Source of the DNA: Yersinia ruckeri ATCC 29473
GTDB taxonomy: Bacteria > Pseudomonadota > Gammaproteobacteria > Enterobacterales > Enterobacteriaceae
Direction of reading: 5' to 3'
DNA length: 64,000 nt
Assembly (NCBI RefSeq): GCF_000754815.1
Contig: NZ_KN150747.1
Coordinates: 1,581,908 to 1,645,907 of the forward strand
Of the stretch, positions 2,562 through 27,528 are shown piece after piece. The notes under the pieces are model-generated. The model saw only the letters and a program-made list of their open reading frames with translations, made no database searches and was not told the DNA's origin. The position numbers were made by a program, and so were the translations under genes. Positions within the stretch are counted from its first letter, which is position 1. The number at the start of each line of letters is the position of its first letter.

Positions 2562-3183
2562 TAGCAAAGAGATTAAACGGGTTTTACTGGGGCCGCTATT
2601 TGACAATAACCCCATTGCATTGCAAATCCTCGGAGTCTGTTCAGCGCTGGCGGTAACCACTAAATTGGAAACTGCACTGGTAATGACGCTGGCGGTGACG
2701 ATGGTGACTGCCTTTTCCAGTTTCTTTATCTCGCTGATTCGAAACCATATTCCTAACAGTGTTCGTATCATCGTTCAGATGGTTATCATTGCATCACTGG
2801 TTATTGTGGTCGATCAGATTCTGCGGGCTTATGCCTATGAAATATCCAAGCAGCTGTCGGTATTCGTTGGCCTGATTATTACCAACTGTATCGTAATGGG
2901 TCGTGCCGAGGCTTATGCCATGAAATCTCCGCCGATTGAGAGCTTTATGGATGGGATTGGTAACGGTCTGGGTTACGGCGTAGTGCTGGTGCTGGTGGGA
3001 TTTGTACGCGAATTGATTGGGTCCGGTAAACTATTTGGCGTTACCGTACTGGAAACGGTACAAAACGGCGGATGGTATCAACCAAACGGGTTGTTCCTGT
3101 TGGCACCTAGCGCGTTCTTTATCATTGGCATGTTGATTTGGGGCTTACGTACCCTGAAACCTGCGCAGATTGAAAAGGAGTAA
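2554..3183 (+). CDS. nqrD: Na+-NQR subunit D
   Basis: A 209-residue integral membrane protein with about six helices, homologous to RnfE-type subunits. C29 and C112 match the cysteines that, together with the pair in NqrE, hold an intramembrane 2Fe-2S cluster in the Vibrio cholerae enzyme. The start codon lies inside the last codons of nqrC (8-base overlap). The stop at 3181-3183 is directly followed by the nqrE leader. Confidence 0.97.
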
Positions 3184-3189
3184 TTGACG

Positions 3190-3786
3190 ATGGAACATTA
3201 CATCAGTCTGTTTGTCCGCGCGGTGTTTGTCGAAAATATGGCGTTAGCTTTCTTCCTCGGCATGTGTACCTTCCTCGCGGTATCGAAAAAAGTGTCTACT
3301 GCGTTCGGGCTGGGTATTGCCGTCATCGTAGTGCTGGGCATCGCCGTCCCTGCCAATAATCTGGTTTATAACCTGGTGCTGAGAGATGGCGCGTTGGTGG
3401 AAGGGATCGATCTGAGTTTCCTTAACTTTATCACCTTTATTGGCGTGATCGCCGCTATTGTGCAGGTATTGGAGATGATTCTCGATCGCTACTTCCCGGC
3501 ACTTTATAACGCCTTGGGGATCTTCCTGCCGCTGATTACCGTGAACTGCGCTATTTTTGGTGGCGTATCCTTTATGGCACAACGGGATTATAACTTCCCG
3601 GAATCCATAGTGTATGGGATTGGCTCTGGCGTAGGTTGGATGCTGGCTATCGTCGCGCTAGCCGGTATTCGTGAAAAAATGAAATATGCCGATGTACCGG
3701 GGGGCTTGAAGGGGCTAGGGATTACCTTTGTCACCACCGGGCTGATGGCACTGGGCTTTATGTCCTTCTCCGGTGTGCATCTATAA
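3190..3786 (+). CDS. nqrE: Na+-NQR subunit E
   Basis: A 198-residue hydrophobic subunit, the inverted-topology partner of NqrD and homologous to RnfA. C26 and C120 are the expected cluster ligands shared with NqrD. The ATG at 3190 is preferred over the TTG at 3184 because AGGAG at 3176-3180 is better placed and the length then equals that of other NqrE proteins. It lies within the operon, with nqrF 15 bases downstream. Confidence 0.97.
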
Positions 3787-3801
3787 AGGCAGGAAGAACT
3801 C

Positions 3802-5025
3802 ATGGAAATAATTCTGGGCGTAGTTATGTTCACTCTCATCGTGCTGGCATTGACGATGATGATTCTTTTCGCCAAATCGAAGTTGGTTAACACCGGTGAT
3901 ATTCAGGTGGAAATCAATGATGACGCGGAAAAAAGCTTTACCGCACCGGCCGGTGACAAATTACTGAATGTGCTCTCTGGGCACGGTATTTTTGTTTCAT
4001 CTGCCTGTGGCGGCGGTGGTTCTTGCGGGCAGTGTCGCGTCACGATAAAAGAAGGTGGTGGCGATATTTTACCGACTGAGCTTTCCCATATCTCCAAACG
4101 TGAAGCTAAAGAAGGTTGCCGTTTGGCTTGTCAGGTCAGCGTGAAGCAAAACCTGAAAATTGAACTGCCGGAAGAGATCTTTGGTGTCAAAAAGTGGACC
4201 TGCGAAGTCATTTCTAATGATAACAAAGCCACCTTTATCAAAGAATTGAAATTAAAAATTCCTGATGGTGATGTCGTGCCATTCCGTGCTGGGGGCTTTA
4301 TTCAAATTGAAGCCGAGCCTCATCATGTGAAGTATGCCGATTTTGATGTTCCGCAAGAGTACCGTGGCGACTGGGATAAATTTAATCTGTTCCGCTTTGA
4401 GTCTGTGGTGACGGAACCTACCGTTCGCGCTTATTCAATGGCCAACTACCCGGATGAGCACGGTATTATCATGCTGAACGTGCGTATTGCTACTCCGCCG
4501 CCGAATGTACCGGATGCGCCTCCGGGCATTATGTCTTCGTATATCTGGTCATTAAAAGCGGGTGATAAGGTAGTGATTTCAGGGCCATTTGGTGAGTTCT
4601 TCGCCAAAGATACCGATGCCGAAATGATCTTTATCGGTGGCGGTGCTGGTATGGCACCGATGCGCTCGCATATCTTCGACCAGCTCAAGCGCCTACATTC
4701 TAAACGCAAAATCAGCTTCTGGTATGGTGCGCGTTCTAAACGTGAAATGTTTTACGAGCAAGATTTTGACCAGTTGCAGGCAGAGAATGACAACTTTAGC
4801 TGGCATGTCGCATTGTCAGATCCTCAACCCGAGGACAATTGGACTGGCTATACTGGATTTATCCACAATGTGTTGCTGGAAAATTATCTGAAGAACCATC
4901 CTGCTCCGGAGGACTGTGAATTTTATATGTGTGGTCCGCCAATGATGAATGCGGCAGTCATTAAGATGCTGAAGGATCTAGGGGTAGAAGATGACAATAT
5001 TATGCTTGATGACTTTGGTGGTTGA
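3802..5025 (+). CDS. nqrF: Na+-NQR subunit F (NADH dehydrogenase subunit)
   Basis: A 407-residue electron-entry subunit. Visible in order are one N-terminal membrane helix (residues ~3-24), a plant-type 2Fe-2S ferredoxin domain with C69, C75, C78 and C110, an FAD domain with an RAYS motif, and an NAD-binding domain with GGGAG followed by a CGPP motif near the C-terminus. It oxidises NADH and passes electrons to the membrane subunits. The stop TGA shares its final A with the ATG at 5025 of the next gene. Confidence 0.98.
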
Positions 5026-6086
5026 TGTTCTGTCTGACAGCGTTCAACAATAATAGGATTATTGTGTATAAAAAGATAACTCTTTGGCTGGTGTTGCTGA
5101 TGGGCGCATCATTGCTGGCGGGCTGTGGGCCTGAACAGGTGAATCTCAAGGGTAAAACCATGGGCACTTATTACTCAATAAAATATGTGAGTGACTCGTC
5201 CAGCCCATCACCGGAACGCCTTCAGGAGGAAATTGATCGAGCCTTGGAACAAGTCAACGACCAAATGTCGACCTATCGACCAAATTCCGAACTGAGCCGT
5301 TTTAATCAAAGCCGGGAAGTGAATAAACCGTTCCCGGTTTCAGCCGCGACAGCCAAAGTCGTGCAGGAAGCGATTCGTATTAATCGACTGACCGATGGTG
5401 CATTGGATGTTACCGTCGGTCCGTTGGTTAATCTTTGGGGATTTGGTCCAGAAGGACGTCCCGATAAAGTGCCTTCTGCCGAAGAATTGGATAAACGCCG
5501 CAGTTGGGTGGGAATAGAAAAGCTTGCTGTGGAAGGTCATGCGTTAATTAAACGTGTTCCTGAGCTGTATGTTGATCTGTCCTCGATTGCAAAAGGCTAT
5601 GGTGTCGATGTGGTTGCGGAATATCTGCAATCACAAAACATCAAAAACTTTATGGTCGATATTGGCGGCGAAGTACGCACCCGTGGGAACAACGGGGAAA
5701 ACAAACCCTGGCGTATCGCGATCGAAAAGCCGGGAGCTGGTGTTGAGCAAAGTGCGCAGGAGATTATCGAACCTGGCAGAATGTCACTGGCAACCTCGGG
5801 TGATTATCGTAACTATTTCGAAGAGAATGGGGTGCGTTATTCTCACACCATAGACCCGGCGACTGGGCGGCCTATCAATCATCGACTGGTTTCAATTACC
5901 GTGTTGAATACCAGTTGTATGACAGCGGACGGTCTCTCTACCGGGCTGGATGTCCTTGGTCCAGAAAAAGGTATGGCGCTGGCCAATCTGCTCGGTATAC
6001 CGGTGTTTATGATTGTCAAAACAGAGAACGGTTTCGAAGAACGCTATTCGAAAGCCTTTGAACCTTTCCTGATAAATCGATCCTAG
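5025..6086 (+). CDS. apbE: FAD:protein FMN transferase ApbE (lipoprotein)
   Basis: This periplasm-facing lipoprotein transfers FMN from FAD onto threonines of SGAT-type motifs; its substrates NqrB and NqrC are encoded just upstream. It has a lipobox ending in LLAGC and then the family start KGKTMGTYYS. The start is uncertain. ATG 5025 makes a TGATG stop/start overlap with nqrF (353 aa). GTG 5064, with GGA upstream, gives a more typical signal peptide of about 21 residues (340 aa). In-operon position with nqrM is the usual arrangement for organisms that mature Na+-NQR. Confidence 0.93.
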   Translation: MFCLTAFNNNRIIVYKKITLWLVLLMGASLLAGCGPEQVNLKGKTMGTYYSIKYVSDSSSPSPERLQEEIDRALEQVNDQMSTYRPNSELSRFNQSREVNKPFPVSAATAKVVQEAIRINRLTDGALDVTVGPLVNLWGFGPEGRPDKVPSAEELDKRRSWVGIEKLAVEGHALIKRVPELYVDLSSIAKGYGVDVVAEYLQSQNIKNFMVDIGGEVRTRGNNGENKPWRIAIEKPGAGVEQSAQEIIEPGRMSLATSGDYRNYFEENGVRYSHTIDPATGRPINHRLVSITVLNTSCMTADGLSTGLDVLGPEKGMALANLLGIPVFMIVKTENGFEERYSKAFEPFLINRS

Positions 6087-6095
6087 GGGGAGTTT

Positions 6096-6323
6096 ATGTT
6101 GACGGTCTTTATCGCTTCTTTTGTCTTCTTTCTTCTGGTGATGGGTGGCATGTCTATTGGCTATGTCATCAAACGTAAGACTTTGCAGGGAAGCTGTGGT
6201 GGGATCAGCACCTTGGGAATGGATAAAGTGTGTGATTGTCCTGAACCTTGTGATTCCCGCAAAAAACGAATGGAAAAGGAAGCTGCTCGCCAGAAAAAAC
6301 TCGATCAGTTCCGTATTCTTTGA
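6096..6323 (+). CDS. nqrM: Na+-NQR maturation protein NqrM
   Basis: A 75-residue protein with one N-terminal membrane helix (residues ~3-25) and a short cytoplasmic tail rich in cysteine (C34, C46, C48, C52) followed by a basic C-terminus. This is the DUF539/NqrM family, shown in Vibrio to be needed for iron delivery to the NqrD/NqrE cluster. A strong AGGGGGAG ribosome site sits 5-12 bases upstream of the ATG. It is the last gene of the nqr unit and ends just before a perfect stem-loop at 6328-6353. Confidence 0.94.
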   Translation: MLTVFIASFVFFLLVMGGMSIGYVIKRKTLQGSCGGISTLGMDKVCDCPEPCDSRKKRMEKEAARQKKLDQFRIL

Positions 6324-6327
6324 CATG

Positions 6328-6353
6328 ACAGCCCGGCGCTATGGCCGGGCTGT
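6328..6353. terminator. Stem-loop between convergent nqrM and GDPD-like gene
   Basis: A perfect 10-bp GC-rich stem (6328-6337 with 6344-6353) and a 6-base loop stand between two converging genes. There is no T run on either side, so it is either a weak bidirectional terminator or a 3'-end stabiliser. Confidence 0.6.
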
Positions 6354-6359
6354 ACTTAC

Positions 6360-7289
6360 CTAGACTTTCTTGTTCAGTATCTTTTTAAACTTTTTGGGCG
6401 AATCGACCATGACTGCATCTACGCCCAACGCTTTGGCTTGTTTGTAATCCTCTTCTCCATTGATACCAAAGAACACTATGTGGGCTTTCCCCTGTGAGCG
6501 GAAACAGTCCATTGCATTTTTATCCCAAGTCAGTTTGGTTTTAGTCTGTGAGTGTCCTTCACCCAGGGTGAATTTTTCTACCACCACCACTTCAACATCA
6601 CGTTTCATTTCCAGCCCGTACCAGCGGCCATGATTAACCGTCGGCAATTTACATTGGTGACCCATAGTAATGTTGACCAATATATCTCGTGTATCATCTC
6701 GGCTTTCAAATCGCTGAATTCTATTGTTGTCGCTTTCCTCTTTATTAACCTTATCTATTTCATCAAGATAAATTTTTTCTGTTGAGTAAACTCGAGTGCG
6801 TTGAAAACCATTGTTTTCTTGTAATGTATTCTTTAGTGCCCGAATAAATTCAGGCGATATCTTTTCAGCATCAGGAGCTTTTATATCAAGATAGAATGTA
6901 TTTTCAGGATATTTAACCAGTACCTCTTTTAATGTGGGGACATAGGCAGAAAATGCTGTGTTATGGATGTGGTTATAACGTTTTGCTGCATCTGCTTTTG
7001 CCAGTTCGGTGGCAGTAAAGTCGCGCACTTTCCCTGATTTATTAGTCAGTTCTTTGAGATCGGATGGCCGGTAGAGTACCGGAATATTATCTTTGGATAA
7101 CTGCAAGGTAATCCAGATAACATCAGCACCGTTATCAAGCGACTTTTTGATCGCTGGAAGCGTATTTTCTGGTGCATCTGCGGTACCTGCCCGATGAGCG
7201 ATAATTTGAGGGTGATGAATAATTGATGTATTAGCTGCAACTGAAATGGAACAGCATAATAAAGTGACTGCCATAATATAATTCCGCAT
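6360..7289 (-). CDS. Exported glycerophosphodiester phosphodiesterase-like protein
   Basis: A 309-residue protein of the GDPD (TIM-barrel) superfamily with an N-terminal signal sequence (about residues 1-19), so probably periplasmic. The hallmark start HRAG (residues 32-35) and ENT (41-43) are present. However, the usual acidic E-x-D metal site is W-I-T (59-61), and the usual second catalytic HD is Y-R-P (73-75). Classical Ca2+/Mg2+-dependent phosphodiesterase activity is therefore doubtful. Start ATG 7289 is preferred because the signal peptide begins there and an AGG lies upstream; an in-frame upstream start adds 13 residues. Monocistronic, convergent with nqrM. Confidence 0.75.
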   Translation of the reverse strand: MRNYIMAVTLLCCSISVAANTSIIHHPQIIAHRAGTADAPENTLPAIKKSLDNGADVIWITLQLSKDNIPVLYRPSDLKELTNKSGKVRDFTATELAKADAAKRYNHIHNTAFSAYVPTLKEVLVKYPENTFYLDIKAPDAEKISPEFIRALKNTLQENNGFQRTRVYSTEKIYLDEIDKVNKEESDNNRIQRFESRDDTRDILVNITMGHQCKLPTVNHGRWYGLEMKRDVEVVVVEKFTLGEGHSQTKTKLTWDKNAMDCFRSQGKAHIVFFGINGEEDYKQAKALGVDAVMVDSPKKFKKILNKKV

Positions 7290-18187: not shown

Positions 18188-19309
18188 ATGGGTAGAATTT
18201 CAGCATTATTCATAACCTGTATTTTATTAATGTCATTTAGCGCTCAGGCTAAAAACATCAACGATATTATGGGGCGGCAGGTAACGGTTCCCGATAATCC
18301 TCAGCGTATTATTTTGGGTGAAAGCCGCATGCTATACACGCTGGCACTGCTTGAACCGGGTAATCCAGCCCAGAGAATTATTGGCTGGCCCGGCGATATC
18401 GCCTATTACGATGCACAAAGCTGGCAGCAATATCTGCAAAAATTCCCAGAAATGGCCAAAGTACCCATCATCGCTCAGGGAAGTATTCGGCAGATAAATG
18501 TAGAAAAAATCATCGAGTTACAACCTGATCTGGTCATTTTATCTCGCTACGCCAAAAATAATGCCGATGAAGACAGCATGCTTAATGGGCTGACTAAAGC
18601 GGGTATTCCCGTGGTGTATGTGGATTTACGTGTCGATTTACTGAAAAACACGGTTCCCAGTATGCGATTGTTAGGGGAAGTCCTGAATCGACAGGAAAAA
18701 GCGGAATCGTTTATTCATTTCTATCAGCAGCATATGCAGGTTATCCAACAACGATTGGCACACTCTCAGGCCGCGAAACCGAAGGTTATGTTGCACCTGC
18801 ATTTGGGGCGGCGTGAAAGTTGTTGTACTACGGCTTCGCATGGCAGTCTTGGCGATCTGATTGACTTTGCCGGTGGCGATAATATCGCCCGTTCACAGAT
18901 AAAAAGCGTTTATGGTGAACTGAACCCCGAGGCTATTCTGATGGCCAATCCAGATGTTTATATTGCCACGGGTATGGCGGGGCCAACAGGCAAGCGTCTT
19001 TCCAGTTTACAACTCGGACCAATGGTTGATAGCCATCAGGCACGCAGTAGCTTTCAGCAACTGATAACTGAGCATCCAATCCTTTCCCATTTGAACGCCG
19101 TTCAACAACATCGGGCTTACAGCATTTGGCATAACTTTTATCTCAGCCCTTACCACGTAGTGGCCGTTGAGATGTTTGCCAAGGCTTTCTATCCCGATCT
19201 TTTTGCTGATATCGATCCACAAAAAACATTCCAACAACTGTATCAACAATTTTTGCCGTTAACTTTTTCAGGGACTTATTGGAGTAACCTCAACAATGAA
19301 AATCATTAA
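18188..19309 (+). CDS. Periplasmic iron-siderophore-type binding protein (ABC transporter)
   Basis: A 373-residue class III solute-binding protein (FepB/BtuF type) with a signal peptide ending at SAQA (residue ~21). The N-lobe opens with MGRQVTVPDNPQRIILGE, and the central part has IIELQPDLVILSR, typical of the fold. It contains an adjacent cysteine pair (CC) in the middle of the protein. It lies behind a Fur box and overlaps the receptor gene by 14 bases, so ferric-siderophore or haem capture is likely. No permease or ATPase gene is nearby, so it must work with a transporter encoded elsewhere, or serve another role. Confidence 0.85.
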   Translation: MGRISALFITCILLMSFSAQAKNINDIMGRQVTVPDNPQRIILGESRMLYTLALLEPGNPAQRIIGWPGDIAYYDAQSWQQYLQKFPEMAKVPIIAQGSIRQINVEKIIELQPDLVILSRYAKNNADEDSMLNGLTKAGIPVVYVDLRVDLLKNTVPSMRLLGEVLNRQEKAESFIHFYQQHMQVIQQRLAHSQAAKPKVMLHLHLGRRESCCTTASHGSLGDLIDFAGGDNIARSQIKSVYGELNPEAILMANPDVYIATGMAGPTGKRLSSLQLGPMVDSHQARSSFQQLITEHPILSHLNAVQQHRAYSIWHNFYLSPYHVVAVEMFAKAFYPDLFADIDPQKTFQQLYQQFLPLTFSGTYWSNLNNENH

Positions 19310-21422
19310 TATTCGCCGTTTGCATTGGTTCGGTTTGCCTTTGCTATTTGCGATCCCGACCGTTCAGGCTGAAACTGCACCACAGAGTGAAAAAACCAAG
19401 ATGGTGGTGATAGGCCAGACCAATGAGGAAGAATCGCAAAGTTACCAACCGACCAGTTCCGTCACAGGGACTCGCACCTCAACCAACTTGCTGAATGTGC
19501 CTCAGGCCATCAATGTTGTTCCTCCGCAGGTGTTGCGTGATCAGGCGGTCAGAAACATTGATGAAGCTTTGTATAACGTCAGTGGTATTACCCAATCCAA
19601 TACCTTGGGTGGGACGCAAGATGCATTGATGAAGCGTGGTTTTGGCGATAACCGGGATGGTTCCATTTTGCGCGACGGTGTACGTTCGGCGCAGGCTCGT
19701 AATTTTACCCCGACAACGGAACGTATCGAGGTGCTGAAAGGCCCTGCTTCAATGCTGTACGGCATGGGAGAACCGGGGGGCGTCATTAACGTTATTACTA
19801 AGAAACCGCAATTAGTACAGCGTAACCATATCGAAGGCTGGGGTAGCAGTTTTAATGGTGGCGGTGGGCAACTGGATGTGACTGGGCCGATTGGGCAATC
19901 CGGTTTTGCCTATCGCATGATTGTTGATCATGATGAAACCGATTATTGGCGTAATTTTGGCCGTAATCGGCAAACGGTCATTGCGCCATCATTGATGTGG
20001 TTTGGTGATACCACCACGGTTCGTTTGGCTTATGAACATATGGAGTACCTGACGCCTTTTGACCGCGGTACTATTATCGATAGTCGCACAGGTAAACCGG
20101 TGGATACGCCACGAAAACGTCGTTTTGATGAGCCTTTTAATGCGACTCGTGGCGATCAAGATAACATCACGCTACACATTGATCAGGAGCTGAATGACGA
20201 TTGGAAAAGCGCGCTGACTTACGCATATAACCGTAATCGCTATAGTGATAATCAGGCGCGAGCCTTGACTCTGAACCCAGAGAGCGGCGTGCTGACTCGC
20301 AAGGCTGATGCAACCGCCAGCGCTGTAAGTCGCGCTCAGGCGGTGCAAGCAACATTACAGGGTGATTTGACATGGGGCAGCATCGGGCATCAAGTGTTGG
20401 TTGGTTTTGACTATGAAGACAACCGCACATATCGCGGTGATATGATTCGCGGAAAGAAAAATTCAGATTTTAATATCTATGATCCTGTTTATGATTTGAT
20501 GCCACCTTCAACTTTGGTCAGTGCCAAAGACAGTGACCAGCGGGAAAATCTCAAAAGCTACGGCTGGTTTGTTCAGGATGCTATTGAGTTAGGTGATCAT
20601 TGGGTGTTCCTGGCGGGATTGCGATACGACAGTTTTGATGTTTTTGCCGGCAAAGGTCGTCCTTTTGTCACCAATACCAACAGTTCTGATAGCAAATTGA
20701 TTCCACGAACGGGTGTGGTATACAAATTGACACCCGAAGTATCACTGTATGGTAGCTATAGTGAATCCTTTAAACCTAATTCCTCCATTGCGACACAAAT
20801 CAGCGAATTGCCACCGGAACAGGGGCAATCTTGGGAACTGGGCAGCAAAGTTGAAATCAGTAATGGCGTCACTGGGACGTTGGCACTGTTTGATATCACC
20901 AAACGTAATGTGATGGTGAGTGAGCTGGTGGGAACTGAAACGGTTACCCGAACTGCCGGGCGTGTGCGTTCACAGGGCGTTGAACTGGATGTTGCCGGGC
21001 AACTGACTGACAGCGTTAGCGCCATTACCTCTTATGCTTATATTGATGCGCGGGTGACGGAAGATCCAGTGAATACGGGGAATCGGATGGCTAACGTTGC
21101 GCGTAACAGTGCATCTTTATTTTTAACCAAAGCAATGGGTTCTACCGGATGGCATGGTGGAGATGATTTACGCTTTGGCGGCGGCATGCGCTATGTCGGA
21201 AAACGAGCTGGAGATGCGGCAAACAGTTTTACGCTGGATGATTACACCGTTGCCGATGCTTTTATTGCCTATACTTTGCCCATTCAGAATTATCGGGTGA
21301 AATGGCAACTTAACGTCAAGAATTTGTTTGATAAGACTTATTATCCTTCTAGCGGCAATAGTTATCGGGTCGCGATTGGTGAACCTCGACAATTTGTACT
21401 GAGGGCTAACGTCGACTTCTGA
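19296..21422 (+). CDS. TonB-dependent siderophore receptor
   Basis: A 708-residue outer-membrane receptor. It has a signal peptide (to about residue 25, VQA), a candidate TonB box MVVIGQT, a plug domain with IDEALYNVSGI and a LKGPASMLYG-type segment, then a beta-barrel ending in an aromatic residue (F708). It belongs to the FhuA/FoxA-like ferric-hydroxamate-type receptors; the exact siderophore cannot be read from sequence. It overlaps the upstream binding protein by 14 bases and shares its Fur-controlled promoter. Confidence 0.93.
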   Translation: MKIINIRRLHWFGLPLLFAIPTVQAETAPQSEKTKMVVIGQTNEEESQSYQPTSSVTGTRTSTNLLNVPQAINVVPPQVLRDQAVRNIDEALYNVSGITQSNTLGGTQDALMKRGFGDNRDGSILRDGVRSAQARNFTPTTERIEVLKGPASMLYGMGEPGGVINVITKKPQLVQRNHIEGWGSSFNGGGGQLDVTGPIGQSGFAYRMIVDHDETDYWRNFGRNRQTVIAPSLMWFGDTTTVRLAYEHMEYLTPFDRGTIIDSRTGKPVDTPRKRRFDEPFNATRGDQDNITLHIDQELNDDWKSALTYAYNRNRYSDNQARALTLNPESGVLTRKADATASAVSRAQAVQATLQGDLTWGSIGHQVLVGFDYEDNRTYRGDMIRGKKNSDFNIYDPVYDLMPPSTLVSAKDSDQRENLKSYGWFVQDAIELGDHWVFLAGLRYDSFDVFAGKGRPFVTNTNSSDSKLIPRTGVVYKLTPEVSLYGSYSESFKPNSSIATQISELPPEQGQSWELGSKVEISNGVTGTLALFDITKRNVMVSELVGTETVTRTAGRVRSQGVELDVAGQLTDSVSAITSYAYIDARVTEDPVNTGNRMANVARNSASLFLTKAMGSTGWHGGDDLRFGGGMRYVGKRAGDAANSFTLDDYTVADAFIAYTLPIQNYRVKWQLNVKNLFDKTYYPSSGNSYRVAIGEPRQFVLRANVDF

Positions 21423-21645: not shown

Positions 21646-22170
21646 ATGACTCAAACTATCTTTATGGTAGGTGCGCGTGGTGCAGGTAAAACAACGATAG
21701 GGAATGCGTTGGCACAGGCGTTGGGATATCGATTTATCGACACAGATTCATTTATGCAGCAAACCAGTTTACTTACCGTTGCTGAAATAGTAGCCAGAGA
21801 AGGCTGGAGTGGTTTTCGCCGCAGAGAAAGCCTTGCGCTGCAAACGGTTACATCGCCTGAAACGGTGGTAGCAACGGGGGGTGGAGCGGTGTTGTCAGCC
21901 GATAACCGAGCTTTTATGCGCCGTCACGGTCTTGTGATCTATCTGCGTGCATCGGCTGATATATTGGCCGAGCGGCTGGCGGAAGAGCCGGAGGATGCGC
22001 AACGTCCAAGTTTGACTGGTAAACCTATTGTCGAAGAAATGCAGGATGTATTGGCCGTTCGGGAAACGATGTACCAAGACGTCGCCCATTATGTTATTGA
22101 TGCCAGCCGTGATCCGCAGTGGGTGGTTGAACAAATTCAGTCATTATTGCTTGATGCCATCGTGAAATAA
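21646..22170 (+). CDS. aroL: Shikimate kinase II
   Basis: A 174-residue enzyme, the same length as E. coli AroL, which phosphorylates shikimate in the aromatic amino acid pathway. The Walker A motif GARGAGKT is at residues 9-16, TDS follows the second strand, and VATGGGAVL and RPSLTGKP are family motifs. ATG 21646 gives the standard N-terminus MTQTIFMVG; the frame is open upstream but that extension is not conserved in the family. AAGGA lies 11 bases before the start. aroL is separated from aroM here by four genes. Confidence 0.95.
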
Positions 22171-22809: not shown

Positions 22810-23580
22810 ATGAGCACATTAGGAAATGCCTCCTCAGTATTAAAGTTATTTGCTAAACAAAATATTATGCATTCCCATCCTGGAATTTCATTCAGTGATG
22901 TTATTAATCAGTTATGTTTGGCGAAAAGCACTACGTCACGTTTATTAATGGCGATGGAGTCAGAGGGATTATTAGAGCGAGATCCTGATACCAAGTTATA
23001 TCATATTGGTCGATTATTATTGTCGATTTCAATTCAGTATCTCTCCACGCCGTTGGTTGATATGGCTGCATCAATGATGATTCGATTAAGTCAGACGACT
23101 CGTTGTACAGGCTATATTTCTGCTCTGGATGGGCGGGAAATTATGGTGCTGAGAATGTTTTACGGGCAGCAGTTTTTACCCGTGGTAACACCTGTAGGAA
23201 CTCGTTCTCCAGCCAACGAAACAGCAGTTGGCCGCGCTATTCTGTCACGCCAAAATGATAGTGAGGTGCGTGAATGTTTTAGCGGTCATTATCGAGCGGG
23301 TTCACCAAACTCACCACAGAGTTTAGATGCATTATTGGCGGCGCTGGCACTCGCTCGCCAGTCGGGCTGGACATTCGCACGTAATGAAACCTTGCAAGGT
23401 GTTAGCTCCATTGCCACCAGTGTGACAAACAAACATTGCAGCGAAACCATTGGGCTATGCCTATCTTTTTCCAGTCGCGATGAAAAACCATTTTATCAAG
23501 ATGAACATGTCGAAGCATTAATATCAATGACAAGGTTGTTAGCCGAAAAGTTGGACGATGATTATTGGTTGGGGAAATAA
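22810..23580 (+). CDS. IclR-family transcriptional regulator
   Basis: A 256-residue regulator with an N-terminal winged helix-turn-helix (about residues 4-65, including LAKSTTSRLLMAMESEGLL) and a C-terminal IclR effector domain with YISALDGREIMVLR and ANETAVGRAIL segments. IclR proteins usually sense a small catabolic ligand and control an adjacent operon. It lies directly upstream of the OPT transporter, DUF1177 and aroM genes on the same strand, so it is their likely local regulator. ATG 22810 gives the normal domain start; a weak TTG upstream is less likely. Confidence 0.88.
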   Translation: MSTLGNASSVLKLFAKQNIMHSHPGISFSDVINQLCLAKSTTSRLLMAMESEGLLERDPDTKLYHIGRLLLSISIQYLSTPLVDMAASMMIRLSQTTRCTGYISALDGREIMVLRMFYGQQFLPVVTPVGTRSPANETAVGRAILSRQNDSEVRECFSGHYRAGSPNSPQSLDALLAALALARQSGWTFARNETLQGVSSIATSVTNKHCSETIGLCLSFSSRDEKPFYQDEHVEALISMTRLLAEKLDDDYWLGK

Positions 23581-23715
23581 TATCCATTAATTTATCGCTT
23601 TAATTTTTATTGATTACTTTTATTAAGATTATATATTTTATTCTACTGTGATGGTTGCTGCCAAGTGAAGGTTTAAACACGAAAACGATAATAACTTTGG
23701 CATTTTAAAATACAT

Positions 23716-23766
23716 GCTTAATTTAAGTATCAGGAGGGAGTTTTATTTTTTTATTTCAAATTAAGC
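23716..23766 (+). promoter_or_regulatory. Inverted repeat upstream of the OPT transporter, candidate operator
   Basis: GCTTAATTT (23716-23724) recurs as its exact complement AAATTAAGC (23758-23766), and the first arm is part of a local dyad CTTAA-T-TTAAG. It lies 31 bases before the transporter start. An operator for the adjacent IclR protein is a guess from position. Confidence 0.3.
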
Positions 23767-23796
23767 GCCGACACCAGCGGAACTTAGGGAGAGAAA

Positions 23797-25365
23797 ATGC
23801 AGAAGAAATTAGGAAGTCAATGGAGTGATATTAGCACGATTGTCGTGATGATATTTCTCTCCATTGTGGGGGCTATTATTGGCCTTCAATTGATAACAAC
23901 TTTAGGTGTAACGCCAAACACGTCAATAATCGGTGCGTTATTTGCCATATTATTGGCCAGAATTCCAATCCGTTTTTTCCAACATTATCGTTCCATCCAT
24001 ACACAAAATTTGGCACAAACCGTGATTTCATCGGCTACTTTTGGGGCGGCCAATAGCATTCTATTACCGATTGCTGTTCCTTACGCAATGGGGCAACCAC
24101 AGCTCATTCTGCCGATGTTTATCGGTGTTTCTGCCGCAATGTTGCTTGATGCTTACCTACTTTATCGTTTATTCGATACCAAAATATTCCCCGCACAAAA
24201 TGCTTGGCCACCGGGGGTCGCTACAGCAGAGGCGATAACCGCTGGCGATAAAGGAGGACGACAGGCTTGGCTACTGGCGGCTGGGGTGACTATCGGCACC
24301 GTTGGTGCCGTGTTGAAAATCCCGATGGCGGCTTTGGGCGCAGCGCTTATTGGTAATATCTGGGCGCTAAGCATGTTTGGCATAGGGCTATTGCTGCGTG
24401 GTTATTCCGAACCGGTTGTTGGTATTGATATTAATGCCCATTTTATTCCCCACGGCATGATGGTTGGTGCGGGATTAGTAGCATTGATTCAGGTTGTTCA
24501 GGTGATTCGTACCAAGACAGCCGTTGATAAACAGCAACGATACACTCAACCGACCACCGAAGTCAGTAAAGCTCTTGGATTGGGTTCCGTTGGCTATGTG
24601 GTGATTGCCACTTTATTGGCATTGGCTGGGGGGCTATACAGCGAGATGTCTATCAGCATGTTGATAGCGTTTGTTTTTTATGCCGCATTTGCCGCATTCA
24701 TTCATGAATTAATCGTCGGTATTGCAGCCATGCACTCGGGGTGGTTTCCGGCTTTTGCTGTCGCGCTGATTACTCTAATGATTGGCATCTTTATCGGTTT
24801 CCCGCCGCTGGCACTGTGTATTTTGACAGGTTTCACTGCGGCGACTGGACCTGCTTTTGCCGATCTGGGTTTTGATTTGAAAGCCGGATTTATTCTGCGT
24901 GGTTACGGTGAAGATTTGAAACAAGAGTTACTAGGGCGGCGGATTCAATTATTTACCGCGTTGGTGGCTTTTGCCGTGGCTATTCCCATTGTGTGGTTCG
25001 CCCATACCAGTTACTTCGCTCAGAATTTACTCCCGCCGGTTGCCTGGGTTTATGCCAAAACTATCGAGGCAGGCTCACAGACCAGTATTGCCCTTAGTCT
25101 ACTGATATGGGCGATTCCTGGTGCCATTATCCAATGGGTCGGTGGCCCGCAACGGCAGATTGGCGTGCTGTTATCTACCGGGCTATTAATCAACAATCCG
25201 ATCGCCGGGTGGGTGGTTTTGACGGGGATTGCCCTGCGCATATTGATTACCCGATGTTGGGGGGAAAAGGCTCGTTCACCCATGTTGATTGGTGCCGCAG
25301 GATTTATTGCGGGTGATGCGTTATACAGCTTTTTTACCTCCATCTTATCCGGCAAAGGAAAGTAG
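23797..25365 (+). CDS. OPT-family (oligopeptide/metal-chelate) transporter
   Basis: A 522-residue membrane protein with about 14 hydrophobic segments. The segment PPGVATAEAITAGDKGG resembles the FPEGxAxAExLxAGxxGG signature of bacterial OPT/YSL proteins, and PHGMMVGAGL fits the family's later conserved part. OPT carriers import small peptides or metal-ligand complexes by proton symport; the substrate here is unknown. A strong AGGGAGA precedes the ATG. It heads an apparent operon with DUF1177 (46 bases downstream) and aroM. Confidence 0.8.
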   Translation: MQKKLGSQWSDISTIVVMIFLSIVGAIIGLQLITTLGVTPNTSIIGALFAILLARIPIRFFQHYRSIHTQNLAQTVISSATFGAANSILLPIAVPYAMGQPQLILPMFIGVSAAMLLDAYLLYRLFDTKIFPAQNAWPPGVATAEAITAGDKGGRQAWLLAAGVTIGTVGAVLKIPMAALGAALIGNIWALSMFGIGLLLRGYSEPVVGIDINAHFIPHGMMVGAGLVALIQVVQVIRTKTAVDKQQRYTQPTTEVSKALGLGSVGYVVIATLLALAGGLYSEMSISMLIAFVFYAAFAAFIHELIVGIAAMHSGWFPAFAVALITLMIGIFIGFPPLALCILTGFTAATGPAFADLGFDLKAGFILRGYGEDLKQELLGRRIQLFTALVAFAVAIPIVWFAHTSYFAQNLLPPVAWVYAKTIEAGSQTSIALSLLIWAIPGAIIQWVGGPQRQIGVLLSTGLLINNPIAGWVVLTGIALRILITRCWGEKARSPMLIGAAGFIAGDALYSFFTSILSGKGK

Positions 25366-25411
25366 TAATAACCCAAGATTGGTTAAATCTTAATAATAAA
25401 AGGTGTCCCTG

Positions 25412-26365
25412 ATGAGCTTACAACAAACCTTACGTGTTTTTGAATTGATCGATAGTGGCCATGTTTGTGGCCAGGATGTGGTGGATTTGTTTGTTGATTT
25501 TCCGGGGGTTACAGCCAGCACGATCAGGGCTGAAGGACCAAATGGTGTTGCAGATTTGGTTCGGATAGACATAACGGGAAGTTCGGGAAAAATACAGGGG
25601 GGGCAAGCACCGACATTAGGCATTATCGGTCGCCTGGGAGGTATCGGTGCGCGGCCTGTGCGCATTGGTATGGTGTCTGATGCTGATGGCGCGATAACCG
25701 CCATTGCCAGCGCATTGAAACTGGCAGAAATGCGTTCTAAAGGAGATATTCTGCCCGGTGATGTGGCGATAACCACGCATATTTGCCCCCATGCTCCCAT
25801 TCGGGCACATGATCCCGTTGATTTTATGAGTTCCCCGATAGATCACATCACCATGAATAGTCACGAGGTGATGGTCGAAGCCGACGCGATTTTATCGATT
25901 GATACAACCAAAGGTAATCGCATCATTAATCATAACGGTTATGCACTATCACCGACGGTTAAACAAGGGTATATCCTGCGGGTATCGGAGGATTTACTGC
26001 GGATTATGGAGATTACCTGTGGGCATTATGCGGTGACTTTCCCGATTACCATACCGGATATCACTCCCTGCGGTAATGGTATCCACCATTTGAATAGTAT
26101 ATTACAACCCTCGACGGTAACGCATGCTCCAGTCGTTGGTGTGGCTATCTGCACCCAAAGCATGATTCCTGGTTGCGCTACAGGTGCCAGCCACGAGACG
26201 GATATCGCCAAGGCGGTTAAATTTACTGTTGAAGTTGCGAAAGAATTTGTCAGCGGAACCTGTCGATTTTATGACGAATCAGAATTTTCCCGCCTTCTCT
26301 CACTGTATGGTTCATTGGCGCATCTGCAGCAGCATAAACATGACCATACGGCAACGAGATTATGA
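25412..26365 (+). CDS. DUF1177 family protein
   Basis: A 317-residue soluble protein of the DUF1177 family, function not established. It is rich in conserved-looking polar stretches such as TTHICPHAPIRAHDP and SHEVMVEADAIL, and a glycine-rich IGRLGGIGARPVRIG segment. These His/Asp/Glu groups could bind a metal, which is inference only. The start is ATG 25412 with AAAAGG 8 bases before it; a GTG at 25403 falls inside that site. It overlaps aroM by 4 bases (ATGA), so the two are translationally coupled. Confidence 0.82.
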   Translation: MSLQQTLRVFELIDSGHVCGQDVVDLFVDFPGVTASTIRAEGPNGVADLVRIDITGSSGKIQGGQAPTLGIIGRLGGIGARPVRIGMVSDADGAITAIASALKLAEMRSKGDILPGDVAITTHICPHAPIRAHDPVDFMSSPIDHITMNSHEVMVEADAILSIDTTKGNRIINHNGYALSPTVKQGYILRVSEDLLRIMEITCGHYAVTFPITIPDITPCGNGIHHLNSILQPSTVTHAPVVGVAICTQSMIPGCATGASHETDIAKAVKFTVEVAKEFVSGTCRFYDESEFSRLLSLYGSLAHLQQHKHDHTATRL

Positions 26366-27039
26366 AGCCCTCTTTGGTTACATTGACCATTGGGCAGGCT
26401 CCGCGCCATGACATTATGCCGTTGATATCCCGCTATCTTCCGCTAGATAAAGTCAGCCACGTTGGGTTATTGGATGGATTAAATGCATTGCAGGTGACTG
26501 AACAGTATGGTGCCACGGACACTGATTCAGTGCTGGCTTCACGTTTAGCCGATGGGACTCCGGTTTTTCTGGCTGTATCGAAAGTCGAATGGGGATTACA
26601 GCATAAAATAGAGCAGCTTGAAGCCAAAGATTATCGATATATTCTGCTGCTTTGTACGGGTATTTTCCATCATTTGCAGACCCAGAAAGCATTATTGCTG
26701 ACACCGGACCGGATCATTCCTCCATTGATCGCAGCAATGGCTGGCGATCGCCGAGTTGGCATTGTTCTCCCGGTATCAACACAGCGTCAGCATCAGGTGA
26801 CCAAATGGACCATGCTTGCCAACCCACCTTGCATTGTCATAGTTAACCCTTATCAAGAGAATGTTCAATCGCTCGGAGTTGTTGCCAGCACTTTGCAAAA
26901 GCAAGGAGTGGAGATCGTCGTGTTGGATTGCATTGGTTATCGCTATCAGCATCGTGACTTTTTACAGGAAAAATTGATAAAACCCGTATTGCTATCAAAT
27001 GTGCTGATAGCAAAACTGGCTGCCGAACTGATTATGTAA
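26362..27039 (+). CDS. aroM: AroM family protein
   Basis: A 225-residue protein homologous along its length to E. coli AroM (same length): LTIGQAPRHDIMPL at the N-terminus, PPLIAAMAGDRRVGIVLPV in the middle, and VVLDCIGYRYQHRD then VLLSNVLIAKLAAEL at the end. AroM has no established biochemical role; the overall pattern resembles Asp/Glu racemase-like folds. In E. coli it lies near aroL and is TyrR-controlled; here it is the last gene of the OPT-DUF1177-AroM unit and ends before a strong terminator. Confidence 0.9.
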   Translation: MKPSLVTLTIGQAPRHDIMPLISRYLPLDKVSHVGLLDGLNALQVTEQYGATDTDSVLASRLADGTPVFLAVSKVEWGLQHKIEQLEAKDYRYILLLCTGIFHHLQTQKALLLTPDRIIPPLIAAMAGDRRVGIVLPVSTQRQHQVTKWTMLANPPCIVIVNPYQENVQSLGVVASTLQKQGVEIVVLDCIGYRYQHRDFLQEKLIKPVLLSNVLIAKLAAELIM

Positions 27040-27074: not shown

Positions 27075-27101
27075 ACCGGGGCATTTGGCTCCGGTTTTTT
27101 T
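27075..27101 (+). terminator. Terminator after aroM
   Basis: An 8-bp GC-rich stem (27075-27082 with 27088-27095, one G-T pair) and a 5-base loop lead into seven T, closing the OPT-DUF1177-aroM unit. Confidence 0.85.
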
Positions 27102-27240: not shown

Positions 27241-27528
27241 ATGCTGAAATTTAATGAGTATTTTACCGGAAAAGTGAAGTCCATCGGTTATGACAGTAGC
27301 AGCATTGGGCGCGCTAGCGTTGGGGTAATGGAGGAAGGGGAGTACACTTTCAGTACCGCTCAGCCAGAAGAAATGACCGTTATTACTGGCGCATTGAAAG
27401 TATTGATTCCGGGTTCACCTGACTGGCAGGTGTTTATGCCAGGAGAGACATTTTATATTCCCGCACAGAGCGAATTTAATCTGCAAGTTGCAGAAGCCTC
27501 GGCTTACTTGTGTAAATACCTCAGCTAA
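27241..27528 (+). CDS. ppnP: Pyrimidine/purine nucleoside phosphorylase PpnP
   Basis: A 95-residue single-domain cupin (formerly YaiE/DUF1255) that phosphorolyses several nucleosides to the base and ribose 1-phosphate. The N-terminal [19 protein letters not shown] and central [18 protein letters not shown] segments match E. coli PpnP nearly residue for residue. It lies between aroM and rdgC, as in E. coli, and is set apart by terminators or stem-loops on both sides. Confidence 0.95.

Follow-up and report, generated by a model that had tools for sequence, protein, structure and literature searches.

What do the genes between aroL and ppnP of Yersinia ruckeri do, and can they account for the aroM gene that Escherichia coli carries at the same place? 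The locus lies in a window of 64,000 nucleotides (the whole stretch of DNA analysed here) from Y. ruckeri ATCC 29473 (RefSeq assembly GCF_000754815.1, contig NZ_KN150747.1, positions 1,581,908 to 1,645,907 of the forward strand), whose genome comprises 3.77 Mb in 2 contigs. Four genes on the plus strand encode, in this order, an IclR-family regulator, an OPT-family transporter, a DUF1177 protein and AroM. Their content, conservation and predicted folds suggest that they probably constitute a conserved operon by which a small peptide-like amide is imported and catabolised, and of which E. coli AroM would be a relic. Each component belongs to a known family; what is new is their combination and the relic.

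Organization of the operon

The regulator gene (22810-23580, ATG at 22810) encodes both domains of its family, HTH_IclR (31.4 bits) and IclR_C (76.2 bits, E 3.1e-21), above the Pfam cut-offs. The OPT transporter (23797-25365, 522 amino acids) matches PF03169 with 84.7 bits (cut-off 25.8, E 8.1e-24). The DUF1177 protein (25412-26365), which has a predicted M17/M28 aminopeptidase-like fold, matches PF06675 with 424.4 bits (cut-off 25, E 1.7e-127). AroM (26362-27039) matches PF07302 with 213.4 bits (cut-off 23.8, E 3.6e-63) and NF007788 with 265.7 bits (cut-off 198). The ATG at 25412 is a likelier start of DUF1177 than the alternative GTG at 25403, because it is better positioned relative to the ribosome site.

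DUF1177 and AroM share the 4 bases ATGA (26362-26365), the start of AroM lying within the stop of DUF1177. The gap between OPT and DUF1177 is 46 bases. The gap between IclR and OPT is 216 bases, and the regulator may therefore be transcribed separately. A terminator-like stem of 8 pairs, followed by TTTTTT, is found on the plus strand at 27075-27095. The region contains 8 terminator-like sites, an ordinary count when compared with 5.6 (standard deviation 2.7) in shuffled sequences; this stem is the longest of the eight and the sole one with six T directly behind it. The reading frames, the Pfam matches and the stem thus confirm the arrangement described in an earlier, sequence-only reading: four same-strand genes with a 4-base overlap between the last two, closed by a terminator.

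Conservation of the gene set

A profile search of a genome collection with DUF1177 gave at least 485 confirmed relatives, of which the best 80 were kept as loci and read. Genes were counted as neighbors when they lay on the same strand within 6 kb of DUF1177. AroM is a neighbor in 71 of the 80 loci, OPT in 65 and IclR in 53. Other recurrent neighbors are an Asp/Glu racemase (25/80), the peptidase PepE (22/80), an M29 aminopeptidase (19/80) and DUF917 (15/80). AroM was found in 72 loci, and in 68 of these its spacing from DUF1177 is between -11 and +110 bases. By their labels the loci represent 33 genera and 20 families (a blank, where there is one, being counted as a label), and DUF1177 was seen in Bacillota, Pseudomonadota, an Acidobacteriota metagenome-assembled genome and archaea. 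Because the association of DUF1177 with AroM is conserved far beyond one species, it is not due to chance. The survey of DUF1177, AroM and OPT that the sequence-only reading had proposed hence speaks for its linkage of the four genes as a widespread arrangement, though not as an absolute one: AroM is missing from 9, OPT from 15 and IclR from 27 of the 80 loci.

At the scale of the phylum the genes are rare. In a phylum-wide sample of 398 genomes, DUF1177 is present in 3 and AroM in 14, and all three DUF1177 genomes have both (Fisher p 3.5e-5, kinship not being corrected for). Genome G380, among these three, carries a further copy of DUF1177 that has no AroM beside it. Among 60 genomes of the window's own family, DUF1177 occurs in 10, AroM in 25 and both in 9 (p 0.001). 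The tenth DUF1177 genome has IclR beside DUF1177 and AroM nowhere. AroM without DUF1177 is common in this family (16 of the 25 AroM-bearing genomes). The cluster is also patchy: DUF1177 and AroM are both missing from the only further genome of the window's genus among the 60. Two clusters of the family sample (G054 and G028) are fragmented, as in decaying genomes or poor assemblies; G028 is rated 49% complete.

On plasmid records that carry DUF1177, AroM adjoins it in 5 of 7 (Sodalis, Klebsiella, Niallia, Paenibacillus and the archaeon Salinigranum), and both Planococcus plasmid records gave no AroM match. The Klebsiella cluster (L047, 505-14453) lies between transposase genes on a plasmid typed as conjugative, and the system may therefore be mobile. 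A phage origin was considered and dropped, as a scan of viral contigs found no relatives of AroM and one of phage records no DUF1177.

Predicted structures of AroM and DUF1177

The model of AroM, built from 57 sequences, has a mean predicted local distance difference test score (pLDDT) of 92.4. Its top Foldseek match is hydantoin racemase 2eq5 (E 4.9e-7, probability 1.00, template modelling (TM) score 0.56), while a sequence search of the PDB with AroM gave no matches. Two cysteines, C98 and C190, are invariant in 57 aligned rows and kept in the window. In an alignment to 2eq5 both stand opposite cysteines, the first of them within a weak stretch (3.7 bits). AroM, which is a separate Pfam family, thus shares its predicted fold and both cysteines with the Asp/Glu/hydantoin racemase superfamily and resembles a member of it, with two catalytic-type cysteines and a putative activity. 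This comparison bears out the relationship to Asp/Glu racemases that the sequence-only reading had asked about. AroM proteins are described as not characterised in an excerpt of PMC11055893, and the excerpts of the literature on aroM with aroL in E. coli contain strain names and a gene list, and no function.

The model of DUF1177, from 60 aligned sequences, has a pLDDT of 86.5 and a predicted TM score of 0.90. In its Foldseek search, M17 and M28 aminopeptidases fill the 50 best PDB rows (E 6.0e-9 to 8.6e-8, probability 1.00, query TM score 0.48-0.56). Sequence searches of the PDB, both single and profile, gave weak unrelated matches alone. Among the conserved residues, D90, D92, H123, C125, D164, E262 and D264 occupy plausible ends of strands and helices for a putative two-metal site. 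In the model, D90 is at the start of helix 89-109, H123 and C125 follow strand 118-124, D164 is at the end of strand 159-165, and E262 and D264 are at the start of helix 262-280. These would be the places where M28 enzymes hold their metal ligands. DUF1177 is thus predicted to fold like a peptidase, and its putative active site is unusual. In the excerpts returned by a literature search on DUF1177, the name turned up for a domain of plant E3 ligases.

Possible substrates

Fuller versions of the cluster give an indication of the substrate. The Sodalis and Klebsiella plasmids have the order IclR-OPT-DUF1177-AroM-PepE-racemase, and the same six genes are found in 10 of the 80 loci. A common Bacillota form (8 of 23 loci) has the order racemase-OPT-DUF917-DUF1177-AroM-M29 and is preceded by a PucR-type regulator in L114, the one locus scanned. 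This gene content points to a di- or oligopeptide (aspartyl?) that is racemised, isomerised or cyclised as the most likely class of substrate. The OPT transporter would import the small peptide-like compound, DUF1177 would hydrolyse an amide bond in it, and AroM, acting as a two-cysteine racemase or isomerase, would invert or isomerise a stereocentre. PepE or M29 together with the second racemase may complete the breakdown in the fuller clusters; alternatively, housekeeping peptidases might make the last cleavage. The operon would be regulated by IclR.

Several more specific substrates can be considered. The PepE of the clusters is an S51 peptidase, assigned as dipeptidase PepE by NCBIfam, and PepE enzymes prefer Asp-X. 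Its presence in 22 of the 80 loci fits the catabolism of aspartyl diketopiperazines, in which OPT would import cyclo(Asp-X), DUF1177 would open the ring, AroM and the second racemase would handle epimers, and PepE or M29 would cleave the resulting dipeptide. Of the candidate substrates this is the boldest, and we consider the route rather unlikely. The window's cluster is without PepE and its genome without any S51 peptidase.

A second observation that bears on diketopiperazines is a gene of family PF19585, named CDOB in PMC11055893. Of 26 genomes or records searched for it (the genomes of 19 of the 23 Bacillota loci and 7 plasmid records), 3 have it, next to the cluster; all three are Bacillota, and the other 23 are without it. 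In each, the PF19585 gene directly follows a short nitroreductase-like gene (L114 14063-14377, L129 14050-14367, L130 4361-4669), whose identity was checked with Pfam in L114 alone. The PF19585 genes lie downstream of the cluster in L114 and L129, and in L130 (Planomicrobium) nitroreductase-like genes, PF19585 and a PucR-like frame lie upstream of it, at 2948-6578. From their sequences, the two genes look like a cyclodipeptide-oxidase pair. According to the same excerpt, cyclodipeptide-oxidase clusters without a cyclodipeptide synthase contain AroM, DUF917, PF01177 racemases, OPT or dipeptide transporters and peptidases, and the three Bacillota loci can be likened to these through the pair. 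As differences, 23 of the 26 genomes or records searched lack PF19585, and a full-text search for DUF1177 did not return PMC11055893.

Biochemical data come from Paenibacillus chibensis DSM 329: of 11 diketopiperazines tested with this strain, two alone were cleaved, cyclo(Asp-Phe) and cyclo(Asp-Asp) (PMC3852281). In the genus group to which the Paenibacillus locus L088 belongs, 23 of 61 genomes have DUF1177 above its cut-off. Set against this, no diketopiperazine hydrolase has been tied to DUF1177, and growth with diketopiperazines did not raise the activity of the strain (PMC3852281). It is conceivable, and on balance unlikely, that DUF1177 founds a new class of aspartyl-diketopiperazine ring-opening hydrolases with a rebuilt site on an M17/M28-like scaffold, working with an AroM epimerase in a dedicated uptake operon. 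E. coli AroM would then be the last remnant of that operon, now either a one-cysteine enzyme or a non-enzymatic protein with a new role beside aromatic biosynthesis.

The two racemase-superfamily proteins, the peptidases and the peptide transporters of the fuller clusters would equally suit a salvage of linear peptides with D- or iso-aspartyl residues, that is, of aged, racemised peptides. AroM and the racemase would convert D-Asp, and DUF1177 with PepE or M29 would cleave. Such a pathway leaves the DUF917, hydantoinase, PucR and PF19585 genes of some Bacillota and haloarchaeal clusters unexplained, and it too seems rather improbable.

A hydantoin or thiohydantoin pathway, in which AroM would be a racemase of the hydantoin type and DUF1177 an amidohydrolase acting after ring opening, would be in keeping with hydantoin racemase as the nearest fold to AroM and with the HyuA/HyuB or PucR regulator genes of some clusters. 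The DUF917 protein of Salinigranum also matches thiohydantoin desulfurase with 261.9 bits, which is below the curated cut-off of 440; a literature search on this desulfurase found nothing. DUF917 is a same-strand neighbor within 6 kb in the 15 loci already mentioned, none of which is from Pseudomonadota, and the transporters of the clusters are of peptide type. The hyu hydantoin pathways follow a like logic of transporter, racemase and peptidase-fold amide hydrolase. They differ in that DUF1177 has no profile similarity to a small set of M20 enzymes and that Pfam finds no hydantoinase among the window's four genes. We regard a hydantoin substrate as quite unlikely.

The OPT family includes yellow-stripe-like carriers of metal chelates, which raises the possibility that a chelate is taken up and the chelator degraded by DUF1177 and AroM. 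In several Bacillota, dipeptide-type (Dpp) ATP-binding cassette (ABC) transporter genes stand beside the DUF1177-AroM pair in place of OPT, and chelate uptake is therefore demoted. The recurrent accessory genes, moreover, are peptidases and racemases. We judge this explanation very improbable and retain a small peptide-like amide as the probable substrate of the operon.

Origin of E. coli aroM

The window's operon is flanked by aroL, encoding shikimate kinase, on the left (21646-22170, plus strand; NF002988, 6.9e-81) and by ppnP on the right (27241-27522, plus strand), followed by rdgC, mak and sbcC. Both flanking genes lie outside the system. The locus corresponds to the E. coli aroL-yaiA-aroM-ppnP locus and is richer by three genes (IclR, OPT and DUF1177); a search of the window for yaiA at E 1e-4 gave no match. 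The E. coli locus has the same flanks and order and a related AroM of the same clade, and differs by the absence of the three genes and, in AroM, of the first cysteine and other residues conserved in the clusters. Among the 80 loci, ppnP and rdgC flank the cluster in 26, with aroL on the other side in 24 of these. The 26 belong to Yersinia, Serratia, Rouxiella, Rahnella, Hafnia, Pantoea, Erwinia and one further member of the Enterobacterales. At the same place, E. coli, Enterobacter and others have yaiA-aroM or aroM alone. The DUF1177-AroM stretch, searched as DNA against E. coli genomes, gave no match, as expected at such divergence.

A wider AroM tree was calculated from 57 rows: 21 AroM-only (15 from the family sample, 4 from the phylum sample, Enterobacter and E. 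coli), 21 of the cluster type at the aroL locus and 15 others. AroM fragments shorter than 200 amino acids (L075, L101) were excluded, and six near-copy Pantoea and Erwinia rows of a narrower, earlier tree were omitted. The AroM-only rows form one group (93/87) inside a clade of 42 aroL-locus rows (100/100), and this group joins the Pantoea rows at 99/95. Placing the cluster rows in a single clade is weakly rejected by the approximately unbiased test (p-AU 0.047) in a second test, made after the first, on the narrower set, had been seen not to reject it (0.145). In the DUF1177 tree and in the OPT tree (67 of 74 rows plus the window, after a length filter of 450-620 amino acids and the exclusion of L055), the aroL-locus copies fall together, enclosing 5 and 3 rows of other origin, respectively.

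The first cysteine is lost in all 21 AroM-only rows of the 57-row tree, and in none of the 21 cluster-type aroL-locus rows or the 15 others. Its replacements are Ser, Asn, Gly, Thr or Ala, the E. coli residue being Ser. In the earlier alignment it is kept in 77 of 77 cluster-type rows, G035 counted in. This genome (locus L026), which was grouped with the cluster rows in trees and residue counts despite lacking DUF1177, represents a half-way state: the order is aroL-IclR-AroM-ppnP, no OPT was found there, DUF1177 is absent from the genome, and AroM keeps its first cysteine. Serratia sp. Ag1 represents the reverse state, IclR-OPT-DUF1177-ppnP without AroM. Among the AroM proteins of the 16 family-sample genomes without DUF1177, the first cysteine is gone in 15 and kept in G035. 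Residues Q12, R15, G35, D38, R61 and Q141, which the AroMs of clusters keep, are gone in 15 or 16 of 16 AroM-only rows. The ratio of nonsynonymous to synonymous substitution rates (dN/dS) is 0.05-0.11 for AroM-only pairs (5 computable of 7) and 0.05-0.21 for cluster pairs, which indicates purifying selection on the AroM-only genes.

The shared flanks and the AroM trees lend support to the remnant context of E. coli aroM suggested by the sequence-only reading. The direction of change would be as follows. The operon would have been inherited vertically at the aroL-ppnP locus of Enterobacterales, and the E. coli lineage would have lost IclR, OPT and DUF1177 and retained AroM. As purifying selection persists in spite of the missing first catalytic-type cysteine, E. 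coli AroM is probably a repurposed relic. The operon is the most likely source of E. coli aroM, and this account is reasonably supported.

Points against the proposed function

A number of observations weigh against the uptake-and-catabolism operon and the relic as proposed. Beyond the missing PepE and S51 peptidase, the window's cluster has no second racemase. DUF1177 and AroM are not obligate partners, since nine of the 80 loci have no same-strand AroM. The 80 loci are the closest relatives, with distant contexts under-sampled, so that figures derived from them do not describe the whole DUF1177 family. AroM is also found outside DUF1177 clusters, in alphaproteobacteria and elsewhere, beside DUF917 and hydantoinase genes; the distant plasmid-borne AroMs examined have such neighborhoods and no annotated DUF1177, which argues that AroM has other partners.

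DUF1177 has a His-x-Cys in place of the Glu pair that M28 enzymes carry, and its comparison with M17, M28 and M20 sets in hhalign gave probabilities of 0.1-0.6%, that is, no profile similarity, the sets being small and the test therefore weak. Its putative role as a hydrolase consequently depends entirely on the predicted fold. The literature searched gave no enzyme activity for either DUF1177 or AroM.

As to the relic, the nesting of the AroM-only rows is weakly forced and involves long branches. The loss of the first cysteine requires one change on the tree and thus counts as one event, not as repeated evidence. Among 8 distant non-enteric AroM rows, of which one (G380) adjoins DUF1177, the first cysteine is kept in 6 and replaced by Ser in 2, so that losses of DUF1177 and of the cysteine are not strictly coupled.

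Regulation and other features of the window

The IclR protein probably controls the operon. A motif like GCGCCAACACCAGGG is present upstream of OPT in enteric aroL-locus clusters (the window, L056, L058, L061, L062, L065, L066 and L073) and is doubled in tandem in L061, L062 and L066. The motif was derived from the same 71 upstream regions in which it has 14 matches, as compared with 1.15 in shuffled sequences. It is a weak candidate, by sequence, for an operator or leader element; the window's copy, GCGCCGACACCAGCG, is itself weak and lies at 23765-23779 on the plus strand. In Shinella (L055, 7965-8912), a fusion joins AroM to a LuxR-type DNA-binding domain, and AroM folds may thus be able to act as ligand sensors.

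Among the matches listed, the nearest named relative of the window's cluster is that of Yersinia nurmii (80% identity in DUF1177, 63% in AroM). The end branches are longer in the window than in Y. nurmii: 0.62 against 0.13 for AroM. For DUF1177, the window's end branch makes up 0.44 of a path of 0.48, and for OPT 0.31 of 0.43. Of 125 otherwise conserved columns, the window's DUF1177 differs in 7, and two of the changes, Q215P and Y220C, fall in the QDITPYGN motif. With such branches and deviations, constraint on the window's operon proteins is perhaps relaxed. One PF01177 protein above the cut-off is encoded elsewhere in the genome, outside the cluster. To the left of aroL, at 18188-21422, the translations contain, judged by eye, frames resembling a periplasmic binding protein and a TonB-dependent receptor, which look like a separate gene set for chelate uptake.

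Implications

If the diketopiperazine reading were true, the operon would supply genes for the cleavage of aspartyl diketopiperazines, which has been measured in cells and crude extracts; the available part of PMC3852281 names no gene for it. DUF1177, for its part, gains a predicted fold and a testable role. AroM of E. coli has been interpreted through its neighbor aroL. This neighborhood is probably an accident of gene loss, AroM belonging with OPT and DUF1177. The E. coli protein is the exception, having lost the first of its catalytic-type cysteines, and studies of AroM function would be better aimed at the operon-type proteins of Pantoea or Bacillota than at the E. coli copy.

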